Assembly: GCA_030648255.1 (NCBI GenBank)
Contig: JAUSHZ010000023.1
Span: 1-35,187 of the forward strand
DNA from: a bacterium
GTDB taxonomy: Bacteria; Patescibacteriota; Minisyncoccia; Minisyncoccales; CG1-02-41-26
DNA length: 35,187 nt
Reading direction: 5' to 3'
Position 1 is the stretch's first letter. The number at the start of each line of letters is the position of its first letter. This document shows positions 3,620 to 32,701 of the stretch, in pieces. The notes under the pieces were generated by a model. It was not told the DNA's origin, made no database searches, and saw only the letters and a list, made by a program, of their open reading frames with translations. Position numbers and translations under genes: made by a program.

Positions 3620-4963
3620 ATGAATACAAAAATTTTGTCAGTCGCCGCGTTGGTCTTATCTGTTCTTGGACTAGTGTTTTTTGCATTTCCAGTTAAGGCC
3701 GATTTGGTCTCAATGTACACTCACCCTTCTGCTGACATTACTTCTAATTCCGCCATTGTTAGCGGAGAATTAAGTAATTTAGGCGGTAAAACTTCAGCCA
3801 CTATTTGGTTTGAATACGGCTTGGCTACAAGTTATGGCTCAAAAACAAATAGCCAAACAATGAATAATGCAGGCACTTTTCAAGCCACTTTATCGGGTTT
3901 AAATTCTTGCACTTTATATCACTATAGGGCAGTAGGGGATAATGGCAATGGAATTGTTTATGGTATGGATAGAACTTTTTCCACTCTTTGCTCAACTGAT
4001 GAATTAAGGGTTTCTTTGGAGGCAGTTCCATATTCAGGACCTGCTCCATTAAATAATGTTGACTTAAAAGCTGATATTACTGGCAAGCAAGCAGGGGATG
4101 TCCATTATCTATTTGATTGTAAAAATGATGGCTCTTGGGATAGAGAAGTAACAATTTACGGAGGGCCAAATTCTTCTTACACTGCTGATAGTTTATGCAA
4201 CTACGCAACTGTTGGAACATACACAGCCAAAGTAAGAGTTGAAAGATTAGGCTTATCAGCTGAAGGCACAGCCACTATTACCGTTGGGGGCAACCAGCCA
4301 GTTACTCCAGTTACTCCAGTTGTTCCAGTTACTCCAACCAATAATCAATATACTTTAAATGTGCAAAAAACAGCGCAAAATATAACTAATGGTACGGCTT
4401 TTGGCGATTCAGTTTCAGCTAATTTCGATGATGTTGTGATTTATAAAGTCATAATTACTTCCTCTGGCCAGGTAACAGCTCCAGCCGTTTATATTAAAGA
4501 TGCAATGCCATCTGGAATGGCTTACTTTGGCAGTTTAACTATTGATGGAGTAGCTGATAACAGAAGCATTACAGATGGAATTTTACTTGGCGATATCCCA
4601 ACAGGAACATCAAAAACGATTACCTATAAGGCAAGGGTTAACGCAAAGGATTCTTTTAACTATGGCACAAATAATTTAATTAATGCTGTCTTGGTTTATA
4701 ATACCGGAGTTTCTATTTCAGATACAGCCACAGTTGTGGTAGTAAAAAGCTCGGTTGCCGGAGCGGCCACTGAAGTAAACACGGGGCTTGTTAGCGATTT
4801 ATTTGGGTCTTTGTTGTTGCCTTTGGGATTAGCTGCTTTATTGTTGTTTATTTTTAAATCACAATTGTTTGGATTTGATAAATGGGCAACTATCAGAAAA
4901 GAAGAAACTAATGGATTTAGAGCCCAAAAAAGATTAAACTCTTTAATTAAAAAGAGAAAGTAA
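3620..4963 (+). CDS. Surface protein with Fn3/PKD-like and DUF11-type domains, C-terminal anchor
   Basis: The product has 447 residues. Residues 1-27 form a signal peptide ending near VKADL. A fibronectin-like region (about 30-125) is followed by a PKD-like Cys-containing domain (about 130-220) and a VTPVTPVVPVTP linker. A DUF11-type repeat domain (about 245-375, with VQKTAQN and YIKDAMPSGM) follows. The C terminus has a transmembrane helix (about 393-412) and a Lys/Arg-rich tail ending KKRK. This arrangement (hydrophobic helix then positive tail) is that of a sortase substrate or stop-transfer anchor. No LPXTG exists; VNTG precedes the helix. It follows the sortase gene by 30 nt. I infer a displayed adhesin or S-layer-like protein. 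Confidence 0.82.
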   Translation: MNTKILSVAALVLSVLGLVFFAFPVKADLVSMYTHPSADITSNSAIVSGELSNLGGKTSATIWFEYGLATSYGSKTNSQTMNNAGTFQATLSGLNSCTLYHYRAVGDNGNGIVYGMDRTFSTLCSTDELRVSLEAVPYSGPAPLNNVDLKADITGKQAGDVHYLFDCKNDGSWDREVTIYGGPNSSYTADSLCNYATVGTYTAKVRVERLGLSAEGTATITVGGNQPVTPVTPVVPVTPTNNQYTLNVQKTAQNITNGTAFGDSVSANFDDVVIYKVIITSSGQVTAPAVYIKDAMPSGMAYFGSLTIDGVADNRSITDGILLGDIPTGTSKTITYKARVNAKDSFNYGTNNLINAVLVYNTGVSISDTATVVVVKSSVAGAATEVNTGLVSDLFGSLLLPLGLAALLLFIFKSQLFGFDKWATIRKEETNGFRAQKRLNSLIKKRK

Positions 4964-4964
4964 A

Positions 4965-5156
4965 TAATCCGTTATTGAAAGCGAGCCGAAAGGCGAAGCT
5001 TGAAATTTACGGAGGATTTACCCCGTGGAGTAGAAATTTACAGAGTAAATTTCTGTTTTAAATTTTTTGTTAAAAATTTAAATTTACTCCACAGGGTGTA
5101 AAAACTCGTAAATTCACTCGTGGCTAATCGCCACTCATTCATTAACGAGTTCTAAC
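4965..5156 (+). promoter_or_regulatory. Structured 5' leader element, copy 1
   Basis: This stretch aligns with 27191-27398, and both end TCTAACATG at a start codon. Domain 1 (4969-5012) has helices CCGT/ACGG, AAGC/GCTT and GCC-GAAA-GGC, with a tandem G-A internal loop. Domain 2 is a long hairpin whose base pairs ACCCCGTGGAGTA (5020-5032) with TACTCCACAGGGT (5085-5097), leaving one conserved C-A mismatch. Domain 3 (5103-5151) pairs AACTCGT with ACGAGTT around a GTGGC-TAATC-GCCAC hairpin. No SD lies near the ATG; a GGAGG (5011-5015) sits about 140 nt upstream. I infer a cis-acting RNA or a mobile structured repeat; the family is not one I can name. Confidence 0.7.
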
Positions 5157-7475
5157 ATGAAAAACAAAATAATCTTATCGTTGTTGCTAGTGTGCGCTTT
5201 GGCTATGCCTGTTTTTGCTAAGGCCATAAGTGTTAACGAGCTTCAAGCGCTTATCGCCCAATTGCAAGCTCAAATTCAGGCGTTGCAGATTCAATTGCAA
5301 CAAACTCAAGGTCAACAGCCAGTTCAGTGGTGCCATACTTTTAATACGAATTTAGGAATTGGCTCTAACGGAGAAGAGGTAGCATATTTACAAACTGCTT
5401 TAGAAAAAGAAGGTCTTTATCAATCGCAAGGCAAATTTGGCTATGATGAAAATATTGCTTCAGTTGTAGTTGGTTTTCAACAAAAATACGCCAGTGAAAT
5501 TTTAAGCCCAGTTGGTTTAAAATATGGCACTGGTTATTTAGGTAAATCAACCCGAGCAAAATTAAATAAAATGTATGGCTGTGGTAATAATCCCGTAACT
5601 AATAAATCAATCACCGTGTCTGCACCTGTTGCTGGTCAAATAATTAAAAGTCCGGTTACGATTTCGGGCAAAGCAGTTGCTTTTGAGGGTCAATTTCATA
5701 TAAAAATAAAAGACAATAATGGAGTAGTTTTGTTGGACATTAATACTATGGGTGCAAGCTCTTATGGTGATCCAATTCCATTTAGTGGGCAATTTACCTA
5801 CAATACCCCTACTGCTCAAAACGGCATCATAGAAGTTTTTGAATTTTCAGCCAAAGACGGCTCGGAAGTAAACAAAGTCTCAGTGCTTGTTTCTTTTGGT
5901 GATTATCAGGGTAAAAACACTTGCGCTGATACTGATGGTGGAAAAAGTTATTACAATATTGGCAGTATTTATGATTCAGGAAAAACCTTTTTTACGGATT
6001 ATTGTATGGACAGTTCTAAACTAAAGGAATACTTTTGCTTGCCATATAGTTCCTCTGGTTTGGGTGGCCCAGCTGAAGAAATTTATACCTGCCCAAATGG
6101 CTGCAGTAATGGGGCTTGTATTGCTTTGCCAGTCCAGAATTCTATTGATTTGTATCCTGGCGCTATTAAGACCGATCAGAACGGTTTTACTTTAGAGGTT
6201 TGGAATGTTGGTACTAAAACTCCAAATTCGGTTTATGATCAAGTTAAAATGGCTGGAGTTACAGCTGGTGGCTATATGTCAAGCGATCAGATGCCCAAAC
6301 CAGGCGGCTATGGCATAGTTAGATATGAATATTCAACATTCAACAATCCAACCCCTGGCGCAACTTATTCTTTAATATTTACAGTTGATCCCAAAAACGA
6401 AATTAGCGAAATAAATGAGAATGATAATGTGAAGACATATAATATTGTTATACCTCAAAAATCAATAACCGTTGTTTCACCTAACGGCGGGGAACAAGTG
6501 ATACTGGGTCAAACTTATACGATTAAATGGAATTCAACTGGTGTGGATAAGGTGGGTGTTTTATTGATTGACTACCTCTCTGGTGGCACAAGATCAATGG
6601 ATATCTCTGCAAGTTTGTCCAACCAAGGAGTGCTTTACTGGGGAGTTAGCCAAAACACCGTTGACGCTATTGGCGGTAAAGTAGGCGATAACTACAAAAT
6701 TCGTGTGTACGAACTAAAGTCCGATGGCACAATTGGTGCGCAAGATGACAGTGATAATTATTTTACTTTTGCTAGCTCAACCACTTCGGTGACCTGCACT
6801 GATTCTGATGGAGGCAAAAGCTATTACACTAAAGGCACCACTCTTTGGGGGCCAATTAGCGGTAAGACCTACGATGCTACAGACGGCTGTGATACTGCTG
6901 GAAAAACACTTTCAGAAAGGTATTGCTCAAATGGTTATTCGGCAGTAGAGTACTACACCTGCCCAAATGGTTGCTTTGACGGCGCTTGCAAAAATACTCA
7001 AGCGGTGCCAACGATTACTTCTTCAAAAAATTTAAGCTTATCAAGCCAAGTCACTGTTGAGCCCGGTTTTACTAACAGCAAGATTGCTTCATTTATAATT
7101 ACAGCGGGTAACGCAGAAGGGATGGATGTAAATAGTATTGTCTTACAACTTGCCACTTCTTCTAATCAATACATCCAAAACGTCCGACTTTATAAGGGAG
7201 AATTAGCTGGGGGCACCCAGATTGGTTATACGGTTGGTGGCGGAGGAGTTTTAACTGGTTCAACAAATTATACTGTTTATCCAAATCCAGCTCTTAGATT
7301 TAGCGCTGGTCAGCAAATTGTTTTAAATGTTTACGCTGACATTTTAACAGGCGCGCCAATAGGAAATGCAGGTAAAATTGTTTTAACTAAGCTAACAAGC
7401 GTTAGCAGAATTACGAATCTTGAAGTTGACAACTCTACTAATGTTGCTGGTCAGAGTATTCTTATTAGTCAGTAA
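5157..7475 (+). CDS. Secreted peptidoglycan-binding, multi-Ig-domain protein
   Basis: The product has 772 residues. A signal peptide (about 1-22) precedes a Gln/Leu-rich coiled segment (about 25-55) and a PGB_1-type peptidoglycan-binding domain (about 60-145, with LGIGSNGEEVAYLQTAL and YLGKSTRAKLNKMYGC). A Gmad2-like Ig domain (about 150-252) follows. Two Cys-rich modules start (C..)TDGGKSYY and end YTCPNGC..GAC. They flank a CARDB-like domain (about 335-435) and a SPNGGEQ..TYTIKWNSTG domain of the Ser/Thr-rich Kre9/KNH type (about 440-545). A further beta-rich domain ends the protein, with no anchor. It likely attaches non-covalently to the wall. It is preceded by the structured leader element rather than an SD and followed by a strong terminator. 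Confidence 0.87.
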   Translation: MKNKIILSLLLVCALAMPVFAKAISVNELQALIAQLQAQIQALQIQLQQTQGQQPVQWCHTFNTNLGIGSNGEEVAYLQTALEKEGLYQSQGKFGYDENIASVVVGFQQKYASEILSPVGLKYGTGYLGKSTRAKLNKMYGCGNNPVTNKSITVSAPVAGQIIKSPVTISGKAVAFEGQFHIKIKDNNGVVLLDINTMGASSYGDPIPFSGQFTYNTPTAQNGIIEVFEFSAKDGSEVNKVSVLVSFGDYQGKNTCADTDGGKSYYNIGSIYDSGKTFFTDYCMDSSKLKEYFCLPYSSSGLGGPAEEIYTCPNGCSNGACIALPVQNSIDLYPGAIKTDQNGFTLEVWNVGTKTPNSVYDQVKMAGVTAGGYMSSDQMPKPGGYGIVRYEYSTFNNPTPGATYSLIFTVDPKNEISEINENDNVKTYNIVIPQKSITVVSPNGGEQVILGQTYTIKWNSTGVDKVGVLLIDYLSGGTRSMDISASLSNQGVLYWGVSQNTVDAIGGKVGDNYKIRVYELKSDGTIGAQDDSDNYFTFASSTTSVTCTDSDGGKSYYTKGTTLWGPISGKTYDATDGCDTAGKTLSERYCSNGYSAVEYYTCPNGCFDGACKNTQAVPTITSSKNLSLSSQVTVEPGFTNSKIASFIITAGNAEGMDVNSIVLQLATSSNQYIQNVRLYKGELAGGTQIGYTVGGGGVLTGSTNYTVYPNPALRFSAGQQIVLNVYADILTGAPIGNAGKIVLTKLTSVSRITNLEVDNSTNVAGQSILISQ

Positions 7476-7500
7476 TCTAGTAGAAAATTGGGTTGTGGAT

Positions 7501-7532
7501 AAAACCCTGTCGCCCGAGGCGACAGGGTTTTT
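7501..7532 (+). terminator. Intrinsic terminator after the peptidoglycan-binding protein gene
   Basis: A perfect stem AAACCCTGTCGCC / GGCGACAGGGTTT with a CGA loop is followed by a T-run. The same hairpin and flanks (TGTGGATAA before, GGTTGT.GATAAA after) recur at 11076-11109. Confidence 0.92.
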
Positions 7533-7604
7533 GGTTGTAGATAAAAGAATTGTTTCTATTCTCAAAAAATAAGAGTAGAATTAAATAATAAAAGAAAATA
7601 TTTT

Positions 7605-10600
7605 ATGAGAAAATTTTTTATACTCATTCTTTGCCTGTTTATTATTTTAACCGGGTTTTTTATTGTTCCAAATGTAAAAGCCGTTGATGGCTCATCTCAA
7701 TCAATGATTGAGAAAATACAACTTTTGTTGACTTCACTAAAAGAGCGGTTAAATATCTTGGGCCAGGAAAATTTATTAGCGCAAATAGCAAGCACCACAA
7801 TAACTGCCGTAGCTACTACAACTTGCGATGTTTCTCCGGCTGATTGCGTGAATAAAAATCTTGTTGCTTATTGGGATATGGATCAGGCCACTGGAACTAC
7901 TGCCATAGATAATTCTGGCAATAACAACACCGGTACTTTGATCGGCGGTGTCAAGATTACCAATGGCGTTTATGGCAATGCCTTACAATTTGACGGGGTG
8001 AATGATTATATAAATGTGGCCGATTCTCCAAGCTTAAGCCCCACAAATGCCGTTACTGTTTCTGGCTGGATAAAAACAAGCAGTATTCAGCCAGGCAGGG
8101 GAGTCATTGTAAAGGGCGGACCAGGCAACAACTATGACTATATGCTCTATTTCTCCAGAACAACGCAGGCAAACGTTAACTTTTACATAAGAAATAGCAG
8201 TGGATCTATTGATACCGCTGGTAGCTATACTTTCAAGTATAATGACAATGCGTGGCATTATTATACGGGAGTTTTTGATGGAGATTGGCTCCGTTTATAC
8301 ATTGACGGAAAATTGGTCTCATCTAAAAATACTGTTCTAACAAATATCAAAAATTCTATAAACCCCCTTACAATCGGCAGGGGTTGGAGCACCTATTTTA
8401 AGGGCTCTATTGACGATGTCCGCGTATATAGCCGAGCTTTATCAGCCAACGAGATCCAGTATCAATATACGCACTTTCTCGCAATAAAGAAATTCATTTT
8501 TACTAATAAAGATACTTTTGATTTTTTCGATATCCCCTATGAAGCTGAAGCATATATTGATGTTAGTAAGAATCATGGAGATGTAACGGATTCAAGCGGC
8601 AACGTGATTCTTTATTCTTATTATGATTTTTATTCTTTTGTAGATTATCAAGGAAAGACTCGTTATATCCTATATGCCGTATTTAAGCCCTCCGCTACCG
8701 CTACAGAGAAAGGGCATATTTATTTGATACCAGGAAACAGGGACGACCTTAGTAATTATATTTATTTAGGTTATACTGAGTACAATATAGAATATTTCAA
8801 TCAAGATACGGCTCAGGCTGATTTCTGGAAGGGTATGATTGAATATCTTGAAAACCCGCTTAAAAGTATTACAACCGGAAATTATGCTCGCGTCATATCA
8901 CAAGTATTAAGTGGTTATTCAGAGTTGCCAGCAGGGGATGGTCAAACTATCAGAATCGCTCACCCGGGAACAATAGGCATTACGGTCCCAGTTATGTTCC
9001 AACGTTTATTAAAAGAATTAGAAAAGAATCCAGGATCAGAAGTAGATATTTATCGGGCAGCGGCTGTATTTGTAAACGGTTATCCCACTGTTTCTTTTAC
9101 TCAAAAAGCGGAAATCAGCCGCTTGATCCGGCAGATATGGGATAAGCTATCCCCTGCGAACCAACGTAGTCTTTTACAGTTAGTTCCAACGACTCCTTCT
9201 GTGAATGAGCTTGGCTTATGGTATCGGGATAAGATGGATGCGTTGTTGACATTGGATTATGAAACTACTTTGCGGTATGGCATCTTTAGCTTAAATAAAA
9301 GATTAACTTTGGATCCGGCCACTAGAAAACAAATCATTCAAAAATTTTTGACCTTTTTGAATAGTCGCCCGCAGATTGACTTTAACCCTATTGATCGCCT
9401 TATTGTTAAAAATGATTCTATTTTATTTAATGCCCGCAAAGAATTTAAAACAGAAATTTTGGCATATTTGAGTAAGGCTTTCAGGCCAGAGATAAATTTT
9501 AATCGCGGGACTATTGCGAAACAAGATTTAGAAAAAGAATTTCAAAATGGAGCCGCGATTTTTGATTGGCTGATGCGAAATGATTACTTAACGCGTATTT
9601 CGGATACAGAAGGCCATTTAAAAGACATTACTCAAGAATTGGAAGCAGCTTTAATGGTAGAATATCCAAATGGTCAGGATCTTAAAATTTTACCCTTTTT
9701 GCGGCAGTTCCAGATGGATGGCTCTTTTGTTTATGCAGCGAACTTAGTGAGGCAGGATTTATCGGCCGCGCTAATCGGTCAGATGGAACAATGGTTGCTT
9801 GACCGGTTTTCTGAAATTAATAGTTTATCCAATAATGACAAAGGGGTTTTATATCATATAATTGCTTCAACCTATTCTTTGCCTTTCAGTCAAGGCCTGA
9901 AAGATCAAATGAAACTTCTTTTTAACAACGCGGATTACTCTTCATGGAGCTTTTCCAATCTATCCGTATTTCTTGGGCGGCTGATTGACTCAAAGTTTGA
10001 TTTATCCGACGCGGATAGAAATCAGTTTTATCAGAAGATTAGCAGGGTCTATTCTGATAAATTCAATAGCAGGGATGGTAGAGGAGATCCCTTGAGTTTT
10101 GGTCAGGGCCACTATGACAATGGGGTATCCTATTTGATTCATTTGCTCAAAAAAGATTCTCTGCTTGCCGCCAGGGCTAAGGATTTATATCCATTATTGG
10201 TAAAATTTAACCCCCAGAAATCAGGGGAAACATCTGGGAATTATCAAAATCGGTTGGCCCGAGTGAAGGCATTATGGTTACAACAAAGGGTGTTTCTATC
10301 TGATTTAAGCTCAGGCCTGGTAGATAAGCCCGAATATTTAGATTATATAATCAGCGGCGCTACGGCGATGAAAGATTATTATGATGTAGTGGGCTTATCT
10401 CCCAATACAGAAGGCGACGCAAGCCAAGGAGTTTTTCGAATTGGAATTAAAGTTTACCCCGAGACATTTTTCCAAATCTTATTGCATGAGGGCGCGCACA
10501 CTTATCATCTGTGGCAAACTTCCGATGTTGAACTTATAGAGGTTCTTGCTGAAACATGGTATTACAGTATGGATTTTAGTAAAAAAACAGTTCTTTCCAC

Positions 10601-10973
10601 TTATAGCGGGGTAGATGGTGGTGAATTTTTCGCTGAGTACAATGACCATGTATATCGGAACGGAGAAGAGAGTTTAAAATTAGCCCTGCAAAACTATTTT
10701 GATGGCTATCCTTTGATGCTGAATATGGTTTTATTCGTTCAGAATCATATCAAGGAGATGGGGGGATTAAAGCAACCTGGCTTGGACTTGTATTTATTAA
10801 ATTGCAAGGAAACGCCACCATACGCATGTACTTTCACTAAAAAAACATTAGAGGCCTCTTGGTTGTCCGGTAATTTTAAAGAGGGAACCTATTCATTTAA
10901 ATTAGATTCTTATCTTTATAAAATATATTATAAGAATTATTTAATTACGAATGTAACGAAAATACCAATATAA
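7605..10973 (+). CDS. Secreted LamG-domain protein with HExxH putative metalloprotease
   Basis: The product has 1122 residues. A signal peptide (about 1-27) is followed by a LamG/concanavalin A-like domain (about 82-287), with LVAYWDMD, LQFDGVNDYI, VSGWIKT and GSIDDVRVYSRALS. A beta segment and a long helical region (about 400-900) that I do not recognise come next. Near the C terminus HEGAH (961-965) is followed 18 residues later by Glu983 in LAETWYY; HExxH with a downstream Glu is the gluzincin-type zinc site. I infer a surface-bound or released protease with a carbohydrate-binding module; the helical region could be a propeptide or scaffold. Substrate unknown. No SD is seen, and the gene stands alone between two terminators. 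Confidence 0.82.
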   Translation: MRKFFILILCLFIILTGFFIVPNVKAVDGSSQSMIEKIQLLLTSLKERLNILGQENLLAQIASTTITAVATTTCDVSPADCVNKNLVAYWDMDQATGTTAIDNSGNNNTGTLIGGVKITNGVYGNALQFDGVNDYINVADSPSLSPTNAVTVSGWIKTSSIQPGRGVIVKGGPGNNYDYMLYFSRTTQANVNFYIRNSSGSIDTAGSYTFKYNDNAWHYYTGVFDGDWLRLYIDGKLVSSKNTVLTNIKNSINPLTIGRGWSTYFKGSIDDVRVYSRALSANEIQYQYTHFLAIKKFIFTNKDTFDFFDIPYEAEAYIDVSKNHGDVTDSSGNVILYSYYDFYSFVDYQGKTRYILYAVFKPSATATEKGHIYLIPGNRDDLSNYIYLGYTEYNIEYFNQDTAQADFWKGMIEYLENPLKSITTGNYARVISQVLSGYSELPAGDGQTIRIAHPGTIGITVPVMFQRLLKELEKNPGSEVDIYRAAAVFVNGYPTVSFTQKAEISRLIRQIWDKLSPANQRSLLQLVPTTPSVNELGLWYRDKMDALLTLDYETTLRYGIFSLNKRLTLDPATRKQIIQKFLTFLNSRPQIDFNPIDRLIVKNDSILFNARKEFKTEILAYLSKAFRPEINFNRGTIAKQDLEKEFQNGAAIFDWLMRNDYLTRISDTEGHLKDITQELEAALMVEYPNGQDLKILPFLRQFQMDGSFVYAANLVRQDLSAALIGQMEQWLLDRFSEINSLSNNDKGVLYHIIASTYSLPFSQGLKDQMKLLFNNADYSSWSFSNLSVFLGRLIDSKFDLSDADRNQFYQKISRVYSDKFNSRDGRGDPLSFGQGHYDNGVSYLIHLLKKDSLLAARAKDLYPLLVKFNPQKSGETSGNYQNRLARVKALWLQQRVFLSDLSSGLVDKPEYLDYIISGATAMKDYYDVVGLSPNTEGDASQGVFRIGIKVYPETFFQILLHEGAHTYHLWQTSDVELIEVLAETWYYSMDFSKKTVLSTYSGVDGGEFFAEYNDHVYRNGEESLKLALQNYFDGYPLMLNMVLFVQNHIKEMGGLKQPGLDLYLLNCKETPPYACTFTKKTLEASWLSGNFKEGTYSFKLDSYLYKIYYKNYLITNVTKIPI

Positions 10974-11019
10974 TATAACGAAATGGACAAAAGCCGCCCG
11001 GCAAGGACTATAAAAGAAT

Positions 11020-11058
11020 TGCCCAAATGGCTGTGCTAATGGAGCTTGTAAAAACTAA
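11020..11058 (+). pseudogene. Remnant of a CPNGC..GAC Cys-module gene end
   Basis: These 12 codons plus stop read CPNGCANGACKN, matching the end of the Cys modules in the 772-residue protein encoded at 5157-7475. An in-frame TAA lies just upstream, so only the tail survives. It is followed by the same TGTGGATAA-terminator block as that gene. I infer that a paralogous gene once ended here and its body was lost or replaced, possibly by the LamG/protease gene. Confidence 0.6.
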
Positions 11059-11075
11059 CAAGGTTTGTGGATAAT

Positions 11076-11109
11076 TAAAAACCCTGTCGCCCGAGGCGAC
11101 AGGGTTTTT
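11076..11109 (+). terminator. Intrinsic terminator, duplicate of the 7501 hairpin
   Basis: The same AAACCCTGTCGCC / GGCGACAGGGTTT stem and T-run as at 7501-7532, again flanked by TGTGGATAA sequences. It would end transcription of the LamG/protease gene. Confidence 0.92.
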
Positions 11110-11148
11110 GGTTGTGGATAAATGGGGTTGTAATGAAAAAATTAATAA

Positions 11149-11183
11149 TATACACTGGAAGTAAGATATTTTCTTACTTCCAG
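11149..11183 (+). promoter_or_regulatory. AbiE promoter with perfect 12-bp operator palindrome
   Basis: A possible -10 TATACA (11149-11154; TTGTAA 15 nt upstream) runs directly into a perfect inverted repeat CTGGAAGTAAGA / TCTTACTTCCAG (11155-11166 and 11172-11183) with a 5-nt centre. It ends 7 nt before the antitoxin ATG. AbiEi antitoxins are known to repress their own promoter by binding inverted repeats, so this is the likely autoregulatory operator. The position over the expected transcription start fits repression. Confidence 0.7.
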
Positions 11184-11190
11184 CAATAAT

Positions 11191-11763
11191 ATGGACAATT
11201 TAATTGCAAAAATCTATCAATTACCAAAAACCGTTTTAACAAACAAGGACTTGGCTTTAGTTTGGCAGGAAACAAATCAAAATAATTTAAAATCCAAGAT
11301 AGCTTATTATATAAAGCAAGGGGATTTATTAAAAATAACCAGAGGAGTTTTTGCCAAAGATAAAAACTATAATAAAAGGGAATTAGCCACAAGCTTATAT
11401 TCGCCATCATATATTAGCTTTGAAACTGTTTTACGAGATTCGGGCGTTATTTTTCAGCACTATGAAACAATTTTTGTGGCTGGAAAGTGGACAAAGCAAT
11501 TAAAAATAAACGGACAGAAGTTTTCATTTAGAAAACTAAAAGATGAATTGTTATTTAATTCAACTGATATAATGTTTAAAGATAACTACAACATAGCCAG
11601 CCAAGAGCGATCTTTTTTGGATACTATTTATTTATTTTCAGAATATTATTTTGATAACTTGTCTGGGATTGATTGGGAAAAATGTTTTGAATTAGCTCCA
11701 ATTTATAAAAATAAACAGATGATTGAGCGGCTTAAAAAATACCAAAAAAACTATGTTAAATAA
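11191..11763 (+). CDS. abiEi: AbiEi-family antitoxin / autorepressor
   Basis: The product has 190 residues. An N-terminal winged-helix region (about 10-55, with LTNKDLALVWQ and YYIKQGDLLKITRGVFA) is typical of AbiEi-type antitoxins. The C-terminal part contains YSPSYISFETVLRDSGVIFQ, the conserved core of the family, and SQERSFLDTIYL. In type IV AbiE systems this protein counters the partner nucleotidyltransferase toxin and represses the operon. The toxin gene overlaps its 3' end by 11 nt. There is no SD; a perfect palindrome lies just upstream. The family call is from motif and partner recognition and is fairly secure. Confidence 0.88.
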   Translation: MDNLIAKIYQLPKTVLTNKDLALVWQETNQNNLKSKIAYYIKQGDLLKITRGVFAKDKNYNKRELATSLYSPSYISFETVLRDSGVIFQHYETIFVAGKWTKQLKINGQKFSFRKLKDELLFNSTDIMFKDNYNIASQERSFLDTIYLFSEYYFDNLSGIDWEKCFELAPIYKNKQMIERLKKYQKNYVK

Positions 11764-12466
11764 AGAAAAACATCAGCTTATAATGGGACAGATTTTAAAA
11801 GACATCTACACAGATATTTCAATTGCCCCGCTTTTGGGCTTTAAGGGTGGCACTTGCGCTTATTTTTTCTATGGCCTTCCCAGATTTTCTGTTGATTTGG
11901 ATTTTGATTTATTAAAAAATATTGATGGAAAAAATAAAAAAAATATTTTTGAAAAAATTGTTAACATTATTGGCAAATACGGAAAAGTTAAAGATAGTCA
12001 TATAAAACAATTTACTATTTTCGCGCTTCTTTCTTATGGAGATGAAGACCACAATATTAAAATAGAAATTTCAACTAGGAATTTTATGCCCAATTTGGAA
12101 ACTTTCTATATCTTAAAAGAATATCTTGCTATTTCTATGCTGGTAGCTAAAAAGGAATATCTTTTTGCTGGTAAGTTGGTTGCCTTAACGCAAAGAAGCG
12201 ATATGGCTATGAGAGATGTTTATGATATTTACTATTTTGGAAAAAATAATTGGGATTTTGATAAAAAAATAGTAGAAGTTTTAACTGGGAATAATTTTTC
12301 TGAATGTATCTCAAACGGTATTGATTTAGTGGAATTTATCAAAGATAATCAGCTTTTGGCTGGGTTGGGCGAGTTGGTAAATGAAAAAGAAAAAAGCTGG
12401 ATAAAACAAAATTTAAAAAATGAGGTTTTGTTTATTCTTAAAAACTATCAAAAAGTTATAAAGTAA
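11753..12466 (+). CDS. abiEii: AbiEii-family nucleotidyltransferase toxin
   Basis: From ATG 11753 the product has 237 residues; an upstream in-frame start at 11723 would extend it inside the antitoxin gene and is not needed. The nucleotidyltransferase core is clear: GFKGGTCAYFFYGLPRFSVDLDFDL (about 29-53 of the shorter form) gives the GG..., R and DxD residues. IKIEIS supplies the third strand and FAGKLVALTQRSDMAMRDVYDIYYF the helical motif of this family. AbiEii enzymes arrest growth by GTP-dependent transfer; a related toxin, MenT3, pyrimidylates tRNA. All motifs are intact, unlike the truncated relative at 27.7-28.0 kb. A strong terminator follows. Confidence 0.9.
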   Translation: MLNKEKHQLIMGQILKDIYTDISIAPLLGFKGGTCAYFFYGLPRFSVDLDFDLLKNIDGKNKKNIFEKIVNIIGKYGKVKDSHIKQFTIFALLSYGDEDHNIKIEISTRNFMPNLETFYILKEYLAISMLVAKKEYLFAGKLVALTQRSDMAMRDVYDIYYFGKNNWDFDKKIVEVLTGNNFSECISNGIDLVEFIKDNQLLAGLGELVNEKEKSWIKQNLKNEVLFILKNYQKVIK

Positions 12467-25742: not shown

Positions 25743-25781
25743 CTGAGAGTATTTTCTAATCAACAAATGCGTGTGAAATGA
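25743..25781. repeat. IS left terminal inverted repeat
   Basis: Contains the perfect inner AAATGCGTGTGAAATGA and the outer GAGTATTTTCTAATCAA that recurs at 35048-35064 (with C in place of the first G), next to the second transposase. Confidence 0.75.
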
Positions 25782-27045
25782 AGGAAGTGAATTCCATCAT
25801 TTCTTGGGGAATATGTTTAAAATTTTTAAATAATTCTTGTTTTGTTTTTTGCATTCTTTCCGCAAAATCATTGTCGCTCATCTCGTAAGCAATTTTATCA
25901 AGCTGCTCAAAAGGAATATTATCTTTTAAATACTTTTTCGCATTTTCCAAAGACTTTAATTTCTCGTAAGGTGTTTGGTAATCCTCCTGTCTGTAAATCT
26001 TTTTTTCTTTCCCTTTTTTATCTTTAATTATTGTAGCAAATCCACAAGGTCGGTGGTAGTTTAAATAGACATTAAAATACTGCTTGTAAAACTGGTTAAT
26101 GGCTGGAGCAAAGTTTTTTGGTATGTGGATATACCCCATATGTTTTCTAATCACTGCTCCATTTTTGCATTCAGCTAAAGCATTGTCATTGCAGTGTCTG
26201 GCTCGAGACTTGGTCTGCTGGATTAATAATTTATTCAATAATTTTGCCACCACTTTGTTAATATACTCTGATCCATTATCTGAATGAAAATTAATTATCT
26301 TAAAAGGAAACTGTTCTATTAAATCTGCTAATAATGTTTCAAGGTAATACTCGGATATTCTTTCTACTGCTCCCACTATTTCCCATTGGGTTGTTTCATC
26401 GGTAATATTGATGTGGCAAACGCCCTTTTGCTTGCCATAATCTCCTTGATGAACTGAATCCACTCTTAGAAATCCAGGACTGCCACAGGGCTCTGGTTTT
26501 CTTCTCTCGCCAATTGGAATTTTACTGCTCTGAGTTTTTTTAATCGTTAAACAATGTGATCGGTATTGGTTGGTGGCTCTTAAATTGTAAATGTGGGCAA
26601 TGGATATTTGGCTAATGCTCTGGTACTCTTTTTTGTGAAAAATTTCACATTCTCTTTTTAGTATTGTCTTGGTGGCAGGCCCGGATAATCTTTCTTGAGC
26701 GTTGTCTGTTCTAATGAGCAAAGCAATATCTGTTGGGCTGTACTTTTTCGGGAAACGATGCCTCGCGCTTGAGTTTAAAAATATTCTGCCAAAATCTCTT
26801 TTTCTTTTGATTATTCTATCAGCTTGAGATTGGGACAAGCCCGTCATTTTAACAATGTAATTTCTAACAATGCCCTTATCTTTTTTCTTTAAACTGAAAT
26901 ATTTAAATTTAGTTAAAACATCGTTAATCCATTCATACTTTTCTTTTTTAGAAACTGATTTGAATTTAATGGCTGTGTCAATCTTTAAAAATGCTTGAAT
27001 TTGTGGCACAGTGTAAATGTGTGAGTCGTTCATTGTGATAGTCAT
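25756..27045 (-). CDS. IS transposase with rve (DDE) integrase core
   Basis: About 429 residues from ATG 27045; the frame extends to GTG 27072 and ATG 27033 is another option. The N-terminal part (about 1-110) is helical and Lys-rich, with a helix-turn-helix-like GLSQSQADRIIKRKRDFG. The integrase core has the DDE residues: LRVDSVHQGD, INFHSDNGSEYIN and NALAECKNGAVIRKHMG. FNVYLNYHRPCGFAT follows, typical of IS3/IS481-related enzymes. It appears intact. A diverged relative enters the window at the right edge (NEFAEFMQKEKEELF here against NDFAERMQKTKQELF). Confidence 0.9.
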   Translation of the reverse strand: MTITMNDSHIYTVPQIQAFLKIDTAIKFKSVSKKEKYEWINDVLTKFKYFSLKKKDKGIVRNYIVKMTGLSQSQADRIIKRKRDFGRIFLNSSARHRFPKKYSPTDIALLIRTDNAQERLSGPATKTILKRECEIFHKKEYQSISQISIAHIYNLRATNQYRSHCLTIKKTQSSKIPIGERRKPEPCGSPGFLRVDSVHQGDYGKQKGVCHINITDETTQWEIVGAVERISEYYLETLLADLIEQFPFKIINFHSDNGSEYINKVVAKLLNKLLIQQTKSRARHCNDNALAECKNGAVIRKHMGYIHIPKNFAPAINQFYKQYFNVYLNYHRPCGFATIIKDKKGKEKKIYRQEDYQTPYEKLKSLENAKKYLKDNIPFEQLDKIAYEMSDNDFAERMQKTKQELFKNFKHIPQEMMEFTSFISHAFVD

Positions 27046-27080
27046 ATACCCCAATGATAACGATTCACACACTACCGCAC

Positions 27081-27158: not shown

Positions 27159-27190
27159 TTGTTTTCACTTTGGTTTTGAGATAAAATAAG

Positions 27191-27398
27191 TAATCCGTTA
27201 ATGAAAGTGAGCCATCAGGCGAAGCTTGAATTTACGGAGGACTTACCCCGTGAAGTAATTTTAAATTTTAATAAATTGCTGAACAATTTATTAAAATTTA
27301 AAATTAAAATTTGTACTCAAATTTTATTTCACAGGGTGTAAAAATTTCTAAATCTCACAGCTCGCTAATCGCTCGCTGTTTAATTAAGAATTTCTAAC
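27191..27398 (+). promoter_or_regulatory. Structured 5' leader element, copy 2
   Basis: Second copy of the element at 4965-5156. Domain 1 (27195-27237) keeps CCGT/ACGG and GCC-ATCA-GGC, and AAGT now pairs with GCTT through a G-U. Domain 2 keeps ACCCC-GTGAAGTAA against TTATTTCAC-AGGGT (27245-27258 and 27324-27337), where GTGGAG/CTCCAC of copy 1 has changed on both sides. The loop sequence is unrelated AT-rich DNA. Domain 3 keeps the TAATC loop with ACAGC/GCTGT outside. The element ends TCTAACATG at the next gene. Together with the IS end it accounts for the gene-free stretch from 27073. Confidence 0.7.
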
Positions 27399-27740
27399 AT
27401 GAGTAAAGTTACTACTACAAAAAAACAAAAATTACCAGAGGATTTTAAAGATGTGATGTGGGGATATAATTTTAAAAAGATAAACCCCGATGAAAACTAC
27501 GAAAGAATTATCGTCAATACTTTAAATTATGGAACATGGAAACAATGGTGTTGGCTTGCTGATTATTACGGAATAAAAAAACTTAAAAATATTATTCAGG
27601 AAATTCCTGAAAGCGAATTTAGGAATTACCGAGCATTACATTTAATTAGCTTAATTTTGGGTATTAAAAAAATGAAATATGAAAATAGAGGTTTTAAAAT
27701 CCAAGCAATCCAGGCAGCAAGAGAAGCTTTCGTATCCTGA
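27399..27740 (+). CDS. DUF6922-like putative antitoxin of an AbiEii-type pair
   Basis: The product has 113 residues. LPEDFKDVMWGYNFKKINPDENYERIIVNTLNYGTWKQWCWLADYYGIKKLKNII is the core of a small protein family (DUF6922-like by my recognition) that usually precedes AbiEii-type nucleotidyltransferases. The last 20 or so residues may be foreign sequence created by a deletion, because the following toxin has lost its front. Role as antitoxin or regulator is inferred from context. It has no SD and starts right at the end of the structured leader element. Confidence 0.7.
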   Translation: MSKVTTTKKQKLPEDFKDVMWGYNFKKINPDENYERIIVNTLNYGTWKQWCWLADYYGIKKLKNIIQEIPESEFRNYRALHLISLILGIKKMKYENRGFKIQAIQAAREAFVS

Positions 27741-28020
27741 AATTGCCGCGATGAAGGCTTATGCTTTAAACTTTCGCGGGGCAACAAAAGATTACTTTGA
27801 TTTATATTTTATCTTAAAAGAAAAATATTCTAGCTTGCAAGAAATTCGAGAAATAGGAGAAAAAAAATATAAAGCCGAATTTAATTTTAGGCTGTTTTTA
27901 GAGCAATTGCTGTATCTTGAGGGACTAAAAAACAACGAAGTGGAGTTCTTAAAACCAGAACCAACAAAAGAGCAAATGAAAAAGTTTTTTGAGCAGGAGA
28001 TTTCTAAAATAAGGCTTTAA
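27679..28020 (+). pseudogene. Truncated AbiEii-family nucleotidyltransferase toxin
   Basis: The open frame gives 113 residues, but only the part from about 27733 on looks like the family: PEIAAMKAYALNFRGATKDYFDLYFILKEKY followed by a helical C-terminal domain. The catalytic N-terminal half with the GG...DxD motif, intact in the toxin at 11753-12466, is absent. The frame also overlaps the end of the upstream gene by 62 nt, consistent with an internal deletion that joined the two genes. It should have no transferase activity. A residual role in binding the partner protein cannot be excluded. Confidence 0.75.
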
Positions 28021-28586: not shown

Positions 28587-28612
28587 AAAAATAAGAAAAG
28601 TTGTTGGTGTTT

Positions 28613-29884
28613 ATGGAAAAAATTGAAATTATGACAATTAAAAAGCAAATTGCGAGCGAGGTGACAATGCCAGGCTCTAAAAGTTTTACCAATCGAGCTT
28701 TGGTTATGGCAGCTTTGAGCAGGGGAGAGAGCCGTATCTTAGGCTATTCCCCCAGCGATGACAGCGAGATTTTAATCATGGCTTTAAAAAAAATAGGCAT
28801 TAAAATTACTAAAACAAAAAAACAAATTATTATTCAAGGCAATGGCGGAGTTTTTAAAGAATTTAATGGCAAAATAAATTTGGGCATGGCTGGCACAGCT
28901 GTGCGATTTTTTATAGCTCTAGCTTGTTTGATTCCTGGTAAAATTATTTTAGACGGCCACGCAAGAATGAGGCAAAGGCCCATGGCTGAATTGGTGAATA
29001 GCTTGCGAACATTGGGAGCTGAAATTAAGTATTTGCAAAAGCAGGGTTGCGTGCCCATAGAAATTACCAAGCCAATTAAGAGAGGCGGGGTGGTGGCGAT
29101 GAGCGGGGGAGTGAGTAGCCAGTATTTTACTGCTTTAATGTTAATTGCGCCTGTTTTAGAAAAGGGGCTTGAAATAAAAGTTATTGGCCAGCAGGTTTCC
29201 AAATCATACATTGATATGACCATAGCTGGTCTAAAAGACTTTGGCGTTAAAGTAAAAAACGAAAATTACAAAAAATATATTGTTGGCCCCAAAGAACGCT
29301 ATAAAGCAATAAGATACGAGGTGGAAGGGGATGCTTCTGGGGCTTCGTACTTTTGGGCCATAGCTGCTGTTAGCAAGAGCAAGATAAAAGTAAAAAATAT
29401 CAACCCAGCCTCTTCACAGGGTGATGTTAAATTTGTTGATTTATTACAAAAAATGGGTTGTAAGGTTGTTAAAAATAAAAAAGAAAAATGGATTGAGGTT
29501 GAGGGAACGGAGCAATTAAAAGCTATTAGGGCTAATATGGAAAGTATGCCCGACACAGCTCAAACCTTGGCAGTGGTGGCTATCTTGGCTGTTGGCAAAA
29601 CAAAAATTACGGGTCTGGCCACCCTAAAAGATAAAGAAACCAATCGGCTCTTGGCTTTGCAAAAAGAATTGGCTAGAATAAATATCAAAGCAAAAATTGG
29701 CTCAGATTATATTATTATTGAGGGAGGTAAGCCAATGGGGGCAGAAATTGAAACCTATAACGATCACCGCATGGCCATGGCTTTTGCCGTGGCTGGGGCA
29801 GTAATCCCGGGCATTAAGATATTAAACCCCAGTGTGGTAAATAAATCATTCCCAGAATTTTGGGAAAAACTAAAAAAATTATGA
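28613..29884 (+). CDS. aroA: 3-phosphoshikimate 1-carboxyvinyltransferase (EPSP synthase)
   Basis: From ATG 28613 the product has 423 residues, the usual length; TTG/GTG codons just upstream and ATG 28631 are alternatives. Conserved motifs: TMPGSKSFTNRALVMAAL for binding, NLGMAGTAVRFF, GHARMRQRPM, SSQYFTALMLIAP, EGDASGASYFW, MPDTAQTLA with the catalytic Asp, and YNDHRMAMAFA. It converts shikimate-3-phosphate and PEP to EPSP. LGMAGTA has Met where most enzymes have Asn, next to the Gly-Ala region linked to glyphosate binding. It leads a tight operon to Phe/Tyr and ends with an ATGA overlap into aroK. Confidence 0.95.
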   Translation: MEKIEIMTIKKQIASEVTMPGSKSFTNRALVMAALSRGESRILGYSPSDDSEILIMALKKIGIKITKTKKQIIIQGNGGVFKEFNGKINLGMAGTAVRFFIALACLIPGKIILDGHARMRQRPMAELVNSLRTLGAEIKYLQKQGCVPIEITKPIKRGGVVAMSGGVSSQYFTALMLIAPVLEKGLEIKVIGQQVSKSYIDMTIAGLKDFGVKVKNENYKKYIVGPKERYKAIRYEVEGDASGASYFWAIAAVSKSKIKVKNINPASSQGDVKFVDLLQKMGCKVVKNKKEKWIEVEGTEQLKAIRANMESMPDTAQTLAVVAILAVGKTKITGLATLKDKETNRLLALQKELARINIKAKIGSDYIIIEGGKPMGAEIETYNDHRMAMAFAVAGAVIPGIKILNPSVVNKSFPEFWEKLKKL

Positions 29885-30429
29885 AGATTATTTTTATTGG
29901 TTTTATGGGCGCTGGTAAAAGCTTTTTTAGCAAGCGGTTTGCTGAACACTTGGGCTTGGAAAGAGTTGAAACAGACGAATTAGCTATAAAAAAAAGCGGT
30001 CGAGCTAGTATTAAAGAAATTTTTGAAAAAGATGGGGAGATAAGATTTAGGGAGCTTGAAATTGAAACTGCCAAAGAGCTTCAAGAAAAAGATAATGTGG
30101 TGATTGACACAGGCGGGGGAGTGGTTTTAAATAAAATAATTTTGGATTATTTAAGAAAAGACGGGGTTGTTATTTTTTTAAAAAGCTCTTTGCCAGCAAT
30201 TGAAGAAAGGTTTAAAGATGATGAAGCGCGACCTTTATGGAAGGATAAAGAAAAATTTAGGCAATTTTATGAATTGCGCTTGCCCCTGTATCAGCAATAC
30301 GCTGATGTGGAAGTGGATACTAGTTCGCCGATTCTCTTTAGTCCTGATGGAAAAAGCCAAGAAATGACCAAAGGGGCAGAAAAGATTTTAGAAGAAATTA
30401 TTAAAAAAATAAAAGCGATAAATTTTTAA
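29881..30429 (+). CDS. aroK: Shikimate kinase
   Basis: ATG 29881 overlaps the aroA stop by ATGA and gives 182 residues; an upstream in-frame start inside aroA is unnecessary. Walker A is GFMGAGKS near the N terminus. The shikimate-binding Asp is in ETDELA, FRELE matches the conserved FR.xE, DTGGGVVL is the GGG loop and RPLW carries the lid Arg. It phosphorylates shikimate, the step before AroA. No aroB, aroD or aroE lies in the window, so where shikimate comes from is open. Confidence 0.94.
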   Translation: MKIIFIGFMGAGKSFFSKRFAEHLGLERVETDELAIKKSGRASIKEIFEKDGEIRFRELEIETAKELQEKDNVVIDTGGGVVLNKIILDYLRKDGVVIFLKSSLPAIEERFKDDEARPLWKDKEKFRQFYELRLPLYQQYADVEVDTSSPILFSPDGKSQEMTKGAEKILEEIIKKIKAINF

Positions 30430-30430
30430 T

Positions 30431-31501
30431 ATGCCAGGAAACACTTTTGGACAATTATTTAAAATAACTACTTTTGGCGAGTCGCATGGATTGGCAGTCG
30501 GTTGCGTTATTGATGGCATGCCCTCTAATTTTGAGCTATCAGAAAGCGATATTCAGCCAGATTTAGACAAAAGAAAGCCAGGACAAAGCCATCTCACCAC
30601 AGCTAGACAGGAAAAAGACCAAGTGAAAATTAAGTCTGGCGTTTTTGAGGGCAAAACAACTGGCGCGCCTATTTTACTTTTAGTGAACAACGAGGATAAG
30701 CGGTCTGAAGATTATTTAGATATTAAAGATTTGTTTAGGCCTTCGCACGCTGACTTTACTTATCAAGCAAAATATGGCATTAGGGATTGGCAAGGAGGGG
30801 GCAGGGCCTCGGCTCGCGAAACTGTGGCTCGGGTGGCCGCTGGCGCTGTGGCTAAAAAATTCCTTCAAGAAAAGTTAAGCGTAGAGTTTTTAACATTCAT
30901 TGAAAGTGTTGGCGAGGTTAAAGCCAGCATAAATTATCAAGAAGTAAAAGCAAGCGATATTGAGGCTAGCTTGGTAAGATGCCCTAGCCCAGAAGATAGC
31001 CAAAGAATGATTGAGCTAATTGAAAAAACAAAAGCAGAAGGGGATTCTATTGGCGGGGTTGTGTTTGGCGTAATTAAAAAAATGCCAAAGGGTTTGGGAG
31101 AGCCAGTGTTTGATAAGCTTTCAGCCGACTTAGCCAAAGCCATGCTTTCCATTGGAGCTGTTAAAGGTTTTGAATATGGCCGTGGTTTTTTAGCTAGCAC
31201 GATGAAGGGTAGCGAACACAACGACGAGTTTTATATAAAAGACAGTCAAGTGAGAACAAAAACTAATAACTCGGGTGGCATACAGGGTGGTATTTCCAAT
31301 GGCGAGGATATTTATTTTCGCGTGGCTTTTAAGCCAACGGCCACTATAGCTAAAAATCAAAATACAATTGGCTTAGATGGCCAAGCAGTGGTTGTTAAGG
31401 CTAGCGGTCGGCACGACCCTTGCGTGGCTATTAGGGCTGTGGCTGTGGTTGAGGCCATGGGGGCTATAACAGTTATGGATCATTATTTGCGCAATAAATA
31501 A
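30431..31501 (+). CDS. aroC: Chorismate synthase
   Basis: The product has 356 residues, standard length, starting one base after aroK. Signatures: GNTFGQLFKITTFGESHG, with the catalytic His; KRKPGQSHLTTAR; FRPSHADFTYQAKYG; GGGRASARETVARVAAGA; and GGIQGGISNGEDIYFRVAFKPT. It uses reduced FMN to turn EPSP into chorismate, the branch point. RHDPCVAIRAVAVVEAM near the C terminus is intact. No SD is present. Confidence 0.96.
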   Translation: MPGNTFGQLFKITTFGESHGLAVGCVIDGMPSNFELSESDIQPDLDKRKPGQSHLTTARQEKDQVKIKSGVFEGKTTGAPILLLVNNEDKRSEDYLDIKDLFRPSHADFTYQAKYGIRDWQGGGRASARETVARVAAGAVAKKFLQEKLSVEFLTFIESVGEVKASINYQEVKASDIEASLVRCPSPEDSQRMIELIEKTKAEGDSIGGVVFGVIKKMPKGLGEPVFDKLSADLAKAMLSIGAVKGFEYGRGFLASTMKGSEHNDEFYIKDSQVRTKTNNSGGIQGGISNGEDIYFRVAFKPTATIAKNQNTIGLDGQAVVVKASGRHDPCVAIRAVAVVEAMGAITVMDHYLRNK

Positions 31502-31524
31502 TAGATAATAGATAATAAATATTT

Positions 31525-32427
31525 ATGGAAAAACTAAAAAAGATTTGGCTCAATGGCCATTTAATAGATTGGGAAAACGCTCAAATTCATATCTTAACCC
31601 ATACTTTGCATTATGGCAGCGGTGTTTTTGAGGGTATAAGATGTTATAAAACTGCGAAAGGCCCGGCTGTTTTCCGCTTAAAAGACCACATTGAACGGCT
31701 TTTTTATTCGGCAGTTGTTTTGGAAATGGACATACCATTTTCTCAACAGCAAATTGAAGAAGCGGTTTTGCAAACTATAAAAGCAAATGAGCTTGAAGAA
31801 TGTTATATCAGGCCTATTGTATTTTTTGGAGATAAAATGGGCTTAAATCCTAAAGGCGCGCCATTACATATTGCCATAGCTGTTTGGCCCTGGGGAGCTT
31901 ATTTGGGTGGCAAGGAAACAGTTGATGTAAAAATTTCTAAATATATAAGAATGCACCCAGGCTCAGCTGATATTAAGGCCAAGATGTGTGGCTACTACGC
32001 AAATTCTGTTTTAGCTTCATTGGAAGCTCATAAAGAAAACTTTGACGAAGCATTATTCTTAGATTACGAAGGATTTGTGGCTGAAGGCCCGGGTGAGAAT
32101 ATATTTTTCGTGGAACAGGGTAAACTCTTAACGCCAAAAAGCGATAATATCTTGGCTGGTATTACCAGAAACAGTATTTTAAAAATTGCCAATGATTTGG
32201 GCATTGAAACCAAAGAAGAAAAAATATCCCCTGAAAGGGCTAAACTAGCTAGCGAGGCGTTTTTCACTGGCACGGCTGCTGAAGTGTGCCCTATTGGTAA
32301 GATAGACGATGTTTTAATTGGTCAGGCTAAGGTGGGAGAAATTACCTCACAAATTAAAAAAGTTTTTGAACAAGTTATTACAGGTAATAACGACGCTTAT
32401 TTATCTTGGCTAACTTTTCTTAAATAA
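31525..32427 (+). CDS. ilvE: Branched-chain/aromatic class IV aminotransferase
   Basis: The product has 300 residues of fold-type IV. LHYGSGVFEGIRCY is the conserved front; the PLP lysine is in DIKAKMCGYYANSVLA; EGPGENIFFVEQGKLLTP, GITRNSILKIANDLG and FFTGTAAEVCPIGKID complete the IlvE pattern. By sequence it is IlvE. In this operon its probable job is the last step, transamination of phenylpyruvate and 4-hydroxyphenylpyruvate to Phe and Tyr, since no other aromatic aminotransferase is present. The short gap before it holds TAGATAA tandem repeats and no SD. Confidence 0.9.
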   Translation: MEKLKKIWLNGHLIDWENAQIHILTHTLHYGSGVFEGIRCYKTAKGPAVFRLKDHIERLFYSAVVLEMDIPFSQQQIEEAVLQTIKANELEECYIRPIVFFGDKMGLNPKGAPLHIAIAVWPWGAYLGGKETVDVKISKYIRMHPGSADIKAKMCGYYANSVLASLEAHKENFDEALFLDYEGFVAEGPGENIFFVEQGKLLTPKSDNILAGITRNSILKIANDLGIETKEEKISPERAKLASEAFFTGTAAEVCPIGKIDDVLIGQAKVGEITSQIKKVFEQVITGNNDAYLSWLTFLK

Positions 32428-32428
32428 T

Positions 32429-32701
32429 ATGCCAGAATCATTGCAAAAAATGCGTTCGCAAATAGATAAAATCGACCAAGAATTGATTAAGGTTTTAGCT
32501 AAAAGATTTATTGTTACTAAAAAAGTGGGCCAACATAAAATAGACAATCAATTGTCAGCCCAAGATAAAACAAGAGAGCGAGCAATGTTTTTGCAAAGGA
32601 AAAGCTGGGCCAAAGAAAATGGTTTATCAGAAAATTTAGTTAAAGATATTTTTAGTTTAATTATAAAAAAAGTTGTTAAAGACAATGCCAAAACAGATTG
32701 A
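32429..32701 (+). CDS. Chorismate mutase, AroQ-type
   Basis: The product has 90 residues with the all-helical AroQ fold: MRSQIDKIDQELIKVLAKRF.VTKKVGQHK carries the N-terminal Arg, the Arg/Lys pair and the conserved Asp; KTRERAMFLQR and LVKDIFSLIIKK supply the later helices. It converts chorismate to prephenate. In many bacteria this domain is fused to PheA or TyrA; here it is separate but its last 17 nt overlap the start of the TyrA-PheA gene, so the two are translationally coupled. Confidence 0.93.
   Translation: MPESLQKMRSQIDKIDQELIKVLAKRFIVTKKVGQHKIDNQLSAQDKTRERAMFLQRKSWAKENGLSENLVKDIFSLIIKKVVKDNAKTD

Follow-up and report, generated by a model that had tools for sequence, protein, structure and literature searches.

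The 35,187-nucleotide stretch of DNA analyzed here (the window) contains two copies of one structured sequence, each ending at the start codon of a different gene, which raises the question of whether such a sequence serves the genes that follow it or is an insertion in front of them. The initial annotation preferred a 5' leader RNA with a translational role and named, as the other possibility, a structured repeat able to transpose. It is this second possibility that we favor, given the presence or absence of the element at the same gene junctions, its lack in one congener (zero copies), an element identity between genera that far exceeds that of the flanks, and a nuclease gene. From the leader reading, the structure, the covariation, and the adjacency to start codons stood, while a specific regulatory role did not. 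In our best reading, which we consider probable, the element is mobile, GIY-YIG derived, mostly non-autonomous, and not a riboswitch.

Structure, extent, and copy number of the element

Both copies lie where they had been annotated, with three domains (D1, D2, and D3) and then AAC-ATG in that order (Table 1). The right edges were correct as first drawn; the left edge is fixed as well, copy 1 beginning at the upstream stop codon and copy 2 just after the TAAAAT box. In complete copies, the three domains are adjoining helices with few bases between them. Copies 1 and 2 align over their full length with 73% identity, and the stability of their folds against 200 dinucleotide shuffles corresponds to z = -8.4 and -8.7, respectively. 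In the MFE fold of copy 1, the UAA stop codon of the upstream gene belongs to the outermost pairs of D1.

Table 1. Coordinates of the two window copies, their domains, and the adjoining signals
Feature	Position	Strand	Description
Copy 1, complete	4961..5156	+	Upstream stop codon TAA (4961-4963) through the base preceding ATG 5157
Copy 1 D1	4961..5020	+	Hairpin with tandem purine mismatches; MFE fold, D1 covariation across copies
Copy 1 D2	5021..5096	+	Long hairpin, CCCCGTGGAG...CTCCACAGGG
Copy 1 D3	5101..5153	+	Terminal hairpin, most conserved part; models R1 and R2, covariation
AAC and start codon ATG of the gene after copy 1 (772 aa)	5154..5159	+	
-10-like box TAAAAT	27182..27187	+	Immediately 5' of copy 2
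Copy 2, complete	27188..27398	+	AAG of TAAAATAAG through the base preceding ATG 27399
Copy 2 D1	27188..27244	+	
Copy 2 D2	27245..27337	+	
Copy 2 D3	27341..27395	+	R2 match 27330-27395
AAC and start codon ATG of the DUF6922 gene after copy 2	27396..27401	+	

The compensatory changes first noted between two sequences are genuine and persist when more copies are aligned. For D3, 26 cells carried two-sided changes, versus 8.1 in shuffles, and pairing was 95%, falling to at most 57% once the partner was slid. Pairing in the inner helix of D1 was 84%, versus 48% with the arms swapped between copies and a maximum of 61% in 1000 shuffles; it was counted per sequence, with script-set boundaries that are partly wrong and lower the D1 score. 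Tandem purine mismatches separate the D1 helices. The tandem G-A loop described for this position is borne out in many copies, which have GA/GA, whereas both window copies have AA/GG. The D1 helix cells included 16 G-U and 4 A-C combinations, and this excess, counted over related copies, is a hint that the sense RNA has been under selection.

The D2 hairpin is long and differs in length among copies. A conserved C/A or U/G wobble pair at one of its mismatch positions was considered and rejected, as the tally (C/A, 45; C/G, 24; U/G, 13; U/A, 7) shows no strict rule. We prefer to read D2 as present in both orientations, which would explain the opposite-strand matches in the BLAST search with copy 1. 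The D3 model weakly recognizes D1 when the opposite strand is read; thus, the two ends of the element appear to be inverted relatives. Copies in other genera (G003, G008, G020, and G023) keep the layout with different stem sequences. The initial annotation recognized no riboswitch class in these domains, and Rfam likewise gave no match in the window at gathering scores; in permissive mode, only chance-level matches were obtained for copy 1. With no Rfam match, a riboswitch or other known RNA was rejected.

Instead of the two copies first reported, the source genome (846,593 bases) holds about 71, including both window copies; the copies are mutually related, so this and the following numbers count copies, not independent insertions. 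As a BLAST query against its own genome, copy 1 gave 73 matches spread over many contigs, and a covariance model (R1) built on the 3' domain gave 76. A second covariance model (R2), which ends at the D3 stem and is blind to AAC-ATG, gave 73, of which 71 are D3 copies and 2 are D1 on the other strand. Many copies lie between the genes of a ribosomal-protein operon on contig C24. Forty relatives were searched, those named here being metagenome-assembled genomes (the source genome is G000, G001 and G002 are congeners, and G022 is from another genus). One congener has 65 to 68 copies, another, 95% complete, has none in the model search, 16 occur in a single genome from another genus, and 1 to 3 occur in several other genera. 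At a strict cutoff, any copy was found in 11 of the 247 genomes of the order. A literature search for a published account of a three-hairpin element of this kind found none among open-access papers.

Placement between a stop codon or promoter and ATG

Conservation right up to the ATG had been noted for the two copies, together with the suggestion that covariance-model hits be checked for an abutting start codon. In the source genome all hits have one (71/71), and scattered copies were not seen. With R2, an ATG lies 3 to 11 nt past every D3 stem, at exactly 3 nt in 61/71 copies and at 4 to 11 nt in 10/71, the chance expectation being about 1 position in 64. In 70/71 copies, this ATG begins a reading frame 50 codons or longer. 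No copy away from a start codon was found among the 71 D3 copies of the source genome with R2, a model trained on ATG-abutting copies that strongly divergent copies elsewhere could escape. At the other end, the left edge falls at an in-frame stop codon in at least 51/102 copies and has a -10-like box directly 5' of it in at least 11/102. Orientation relative to the genes and position are constant in the gaps of the ribosomal-protein operon. The D3 stems are free to vary, and AAC-ATG is invariant.

The absence of a Shine-Dalgarno (SD) motif was correctly observed, although it does not serve as an argument for a translational role: a strong SD motif is found in 0/63 other genes here (1.2% of random stretches have one), and SD motifs are hardly used anywhere in the lineage. 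A pattern search for the anti-SD at the 16S 3' end of the draft source genome gave no match and is uninformative either way. GGAGG in D1 (TTTACGGAGGA) was considered as an SD and rejected; it is the 3' arm of D1, more than 100 nt from the AUG, and is absent from ATGACGC-type D1.

Unrelated inverted-repeat spacers, marked by the words TAATAACCAATAACC and GTTTCATGTTTC, also fill stop-to-ATG gaps in the ribosomal operon of G022 and G001 (L111 to L116). Hairpin inserts at such gaps may be a general habit.

Polymorphism between relatives and a GIY-YIG nuclease in D2

The element can be present at a ribosomal junction of one genome and missing from the orthologous junction of a near relative. Between rplR and rpsE, G002 has TAA-ACAT-ATG where G000 has a 194-nt element. 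Among the ribosomal junctions tabulated, the element is present only in G001 at rpsJ, rplB, rpsS, rpmC, and rplN, only in G000 at secY, rplC, and rpsD, and only in G022 at rpoA. An empty junction mostly consists of a stop codon, a few nucleotides, and ATG, and the element replaces the whole gap. The G001 ortholog of the copy 2 gene has the same -10-like box and no element (TTTGAGGTAAAATATAAGTAT followed directly by ATG, versus TTTGAGATAAAATAAGTAATCC...CTAAC followed by ATG here). Its promoter box lies about 8 nt before the ATG, and the gene is therefore probably leaderless. No fixed-length target-site duplication was seen in the empty/occupied pairs (ribosomal junctions and the copy 2 ortholog), and no cleavage site was definable for these copies.

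At a junction common to G000 and G022 (C1/C61; upstream gene thrS-like), D1 and D3 are 98% identical, versus 72 to 73% for the flanking coding DNA. At a kinase/regulator-like junction also shared with G022, the element halves are 96 to 100% identical, versus 60 to 62% for the flanking coding DNA. Because D3 varies freely within one genome, such high identity points to recent horizontal spread, which would be expected to leave element identity above flank identity. Presence or absence at the same site, combined with identity above that of the flanks, is the pattern of a homing element.

The loop of D2 in some copies contains an ORF that matches GIY-YIG (PF01541, E = 1.2e-17). Such ORFs occur on contigs C3 and C15 of G000, with a 5'-truncated one on C30, and elsewhere in G001 (two), G008 (one), and G022 (one, interrupted by another hairpin insert). 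The GIY-YIG protein is 89 aa long; the right arm of D2 encodes its C-terminal SYFTGCK, and the stop codon lies inside D3. The residues Tyr, GYT, Arg27, and Glu63, which we take to be the GIY-YIG catalytic residues, are retained (alignment A2). Most copies have no nuclease gene, and shorter ones carry fragments of the ORF in the D2 loop; many short copies thus derive from a longer coding copy, as in MITE-type families. A separate hairpin repeat starting GAGATGGTTGCAAAACTATT was observed within the GIY-YIG ORF and at other places in G022 (L122, which is G022 C56, L123, and L139).

The same inverted repeat (ACCCYGTKARAT...ATYTMACRGGGT) also encloses relatives of the nuclease in other phyla (Taylorbacteria, Deltaproteobacteria, Bacteroidetes, Schekmanbacteria, and Omnitrophota), with exact 12- to 16-bp arms in about ten. 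Three (L144, L145, and L148) are at the nusG-rplK junction of different CPR lineages, from a reading of their flanks. No close relative was found in phage records. Within Bacteroidetes, in Niabella, a Bacteroidales MAG, and Gelidibacter (L149, L152, and L155), a GIY-YIG hairpin element apparently lies within coding sequences, whose hosts read as DinD-like, ATP-binding/RecG-like, and GxxExxY-like; the Gelidibacter copy has a possible GTTTACC direct repeat. Small GIY-YIG ORFs of CPR genomes often adjoin a tRNA or tmRNA gene, and some of them follow a partial tRNA-like duplication (L165, L166, L167, L169, L170, L171, and L173; L125 at G001 C4:43.6k; L123 at G022 C66:13.2k).

Proposed explanation, rivals, and known counterparts

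The family, its structure, position, and polymorphism, its recent spread, and its association with a nuclease are established above by sequence comparison. In the explanation that we propose, each copy would be an inserted mobile element of about 120 to 300 nt, longer with the nuclease gene. A complete element would comprise D1, D2 with the GIY-YIG endonuclease ORF in its loop, and D3; most copies would no longer have the ORF, and any movement of theirs would be in trans. The nuclease presumably makes or starts a break at gene junctions, and repair may copy the element in via the short TAA...ATG identity at its ends. In the RNA, three adjacent helices would bring the upstream stop codon or the mRNA 5' end near an unpaired AACAUG, and the next gene would still be translated owing to this folding. 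It is this three-helix fold that would let insertions survive in stop/start gaps as well as at 5' ends of leaderless mRNAs. With confidence somewhat below even, we further suggest a mobile class that either targets the exact stop (or promoter)-to-start gap or survives nowhere else, and that carries its own folded leader.

Some considerations run counter to this explanation, among them that neither a target-site duplication nor a cleavage site was definable and that most copies carry no nuclease gene. A purely selfish inserter would leave copies off start codons unless it targeted junctions or such copies were purged. The combination of free D3 stems and a fixed AAC-ATG leaves room for a functional role at initiation, and several genomes of the family, with only 1 to 4 copies, could contain old leaders. 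A translational or RNA-level constraint is likely the reason for the adjacency to ATG.

The foremost competing explanation, which we consider unlikely, is a cis-acting translational leader, in which the three-helix RNA recruits or positions the 30S at AACAUG and was amplified as an aid to expression or coupling. The ATG 3 to 11 nt from every D3 in G000, the strong covariation of D1 and D3, and the UAA stop codon paired in D1 at the opposite end all speak for it, and the 16 G-U versus 4 A-C cells of D1 are as selection on the sense RNA predicts. However, one congener has zero copies, orthologous highly expressed genes manage without the element, and other, unrelated inverted repeats occupy the same junctions in relatives. 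In addition, no shared function is evident among the downstream genes, which, together with the lineage-wide scarcity of SD motifs, leaves a specific regulatory role unsupported.

Removal from the RNA, by intron-like processing or splicing at the element edges that leaves a leaderless mRNA or re-creates the native junction, is in our judgment very unlikely. It would account for edges that fall at a stop codon or promoter at one end and at AUG at the opposite end, for the leaderless appearance of the empty copy 2 ortholog, and for relatives in Niabella, Bacteroidales, and Gelidibacter that lie within coding sequences, but the small hairpin core contains no recognizable catalytic core, and Rfam gave no match to group I/II introns or known ribozymes (intron models unmatched in the window and for copy 1). 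Integron-like gene cassettes with attC-type recombination sites, brought to mind at first look by C24 repeats about 600 bp apart, were rejected as highly improbable, since the C24 array is a ribosomal-protein operon in conserved gene order, the elements come and go between the same neighbors, and attC-like end motifs were not seen at their ends.

As a mobile, GIY-YIG-derived element, the family would work like a homing-nuclease element and a MITE family, with a tolerance that recalls introns. The I-TevI class of GIY-YIG homing endonucleases, free-standing or intron-borne, likewise has a nuclease gene in a mobile unit and spreads into orthologous sites; here, in contrast, what is inserted into stop/start gaps is neither an intron nor a lone gene but a three-hairpin element, most copies are without the ORF, and homing activity is putative. 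The byp elements of yeast mitochondria are mobile translational bypass hairpins, similarly tolerated because translation copes, although they lie within coding sequences and not between genes. MITE-like palindromic repeats (ERIC, Correia, and REP/BIME) are short, folded, multicopy, intergenic, and non-autonomous. The present element has these features in common with them (for REP, see PMC2817692), but it alone is bound to the position immediately ahead of the start codon, its parent enzyme is a GIY-YIG nuclease and not a transposase, and it forms a covarying multi-helix RNA.

The closest case of repeats adjoining start codons is that of the abundant TAACTGA direct repeats of Beggiatoaceae, found within a few nucleotides upstream of start codons (PMC4679880). 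These also occur in ribosomal-protein operons and where canonical ribosome binding sites are rare, but they are heptamer tandem repeats for which neither a three-helix structure nor a nuclease gene is described there. A survey of CPR rRNA insertions reported GIY-YIG genes in insertions matching neither intron group (PMC11270868). They share the CPR hosts, the GIY-YIG ORF, and the non-intron insertion, their stem-loop placement also suggests tolerance at the RNA level, and they may be cousins of the present element; those described in that survey are in rRNA genes, whereas here protein-gene junctions are occupied, at about 70 copies per genome.

A mobile class targeted or restricted to the stop-to-start gap, if it exists, would colonize even ribosomal-protein operons harmlessly, as an RNA-level counterpart of self-splicing without splicing. 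Mobile elements usually shun essential operons or need splicing there, whereas here many ribosomal-operon gaps of a reduced CPR genome are filled. Should the RNA folding explanation hold, it would represent a novel means by which a selfish element avoids doing harm. The sister species also provide a natural experiment on start-codon choice without Shine-Dalgarno motifs, in that about 200 nt of structured RNA may be present at a junction in one species and absent from that junction in another.

Finally, the surroundings of the window copies can be described. The gene after copy 1, annotated initially as a peptidoglycan-binding protein, matches no Pfam peptidoglycan-binding family; its domain matches are to Gmad2 and CARDB. 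In G001 and G002, a different stretch follows the upstream gene, so there is no orthologous copy 1 junction to compare. The DUF11 gene (3620-4963 here) closely precedes an mraZ-like region (12648 here) in these congeners, and the approximately 7.6 kb headed by copy 1 (5157-12466) has thus been gained or lost between species. Toxin genes of the AbiEii type (PF08843) with adjoining antitoxin-like genes are located at 11191-12466 and 27399-28020, the latter pair headed by copy 2. An integrase-core (rve) gene (25756-27072, minus strand) lies about 120 nt upstream of copy 2 in divergent orientation, with no sign of linkage to the element. Further downstream, a run of ORFs (28601-34382) reads by eye like shikimate/aromatic amino acid genes, which is unusual for a reduced CPR genome.
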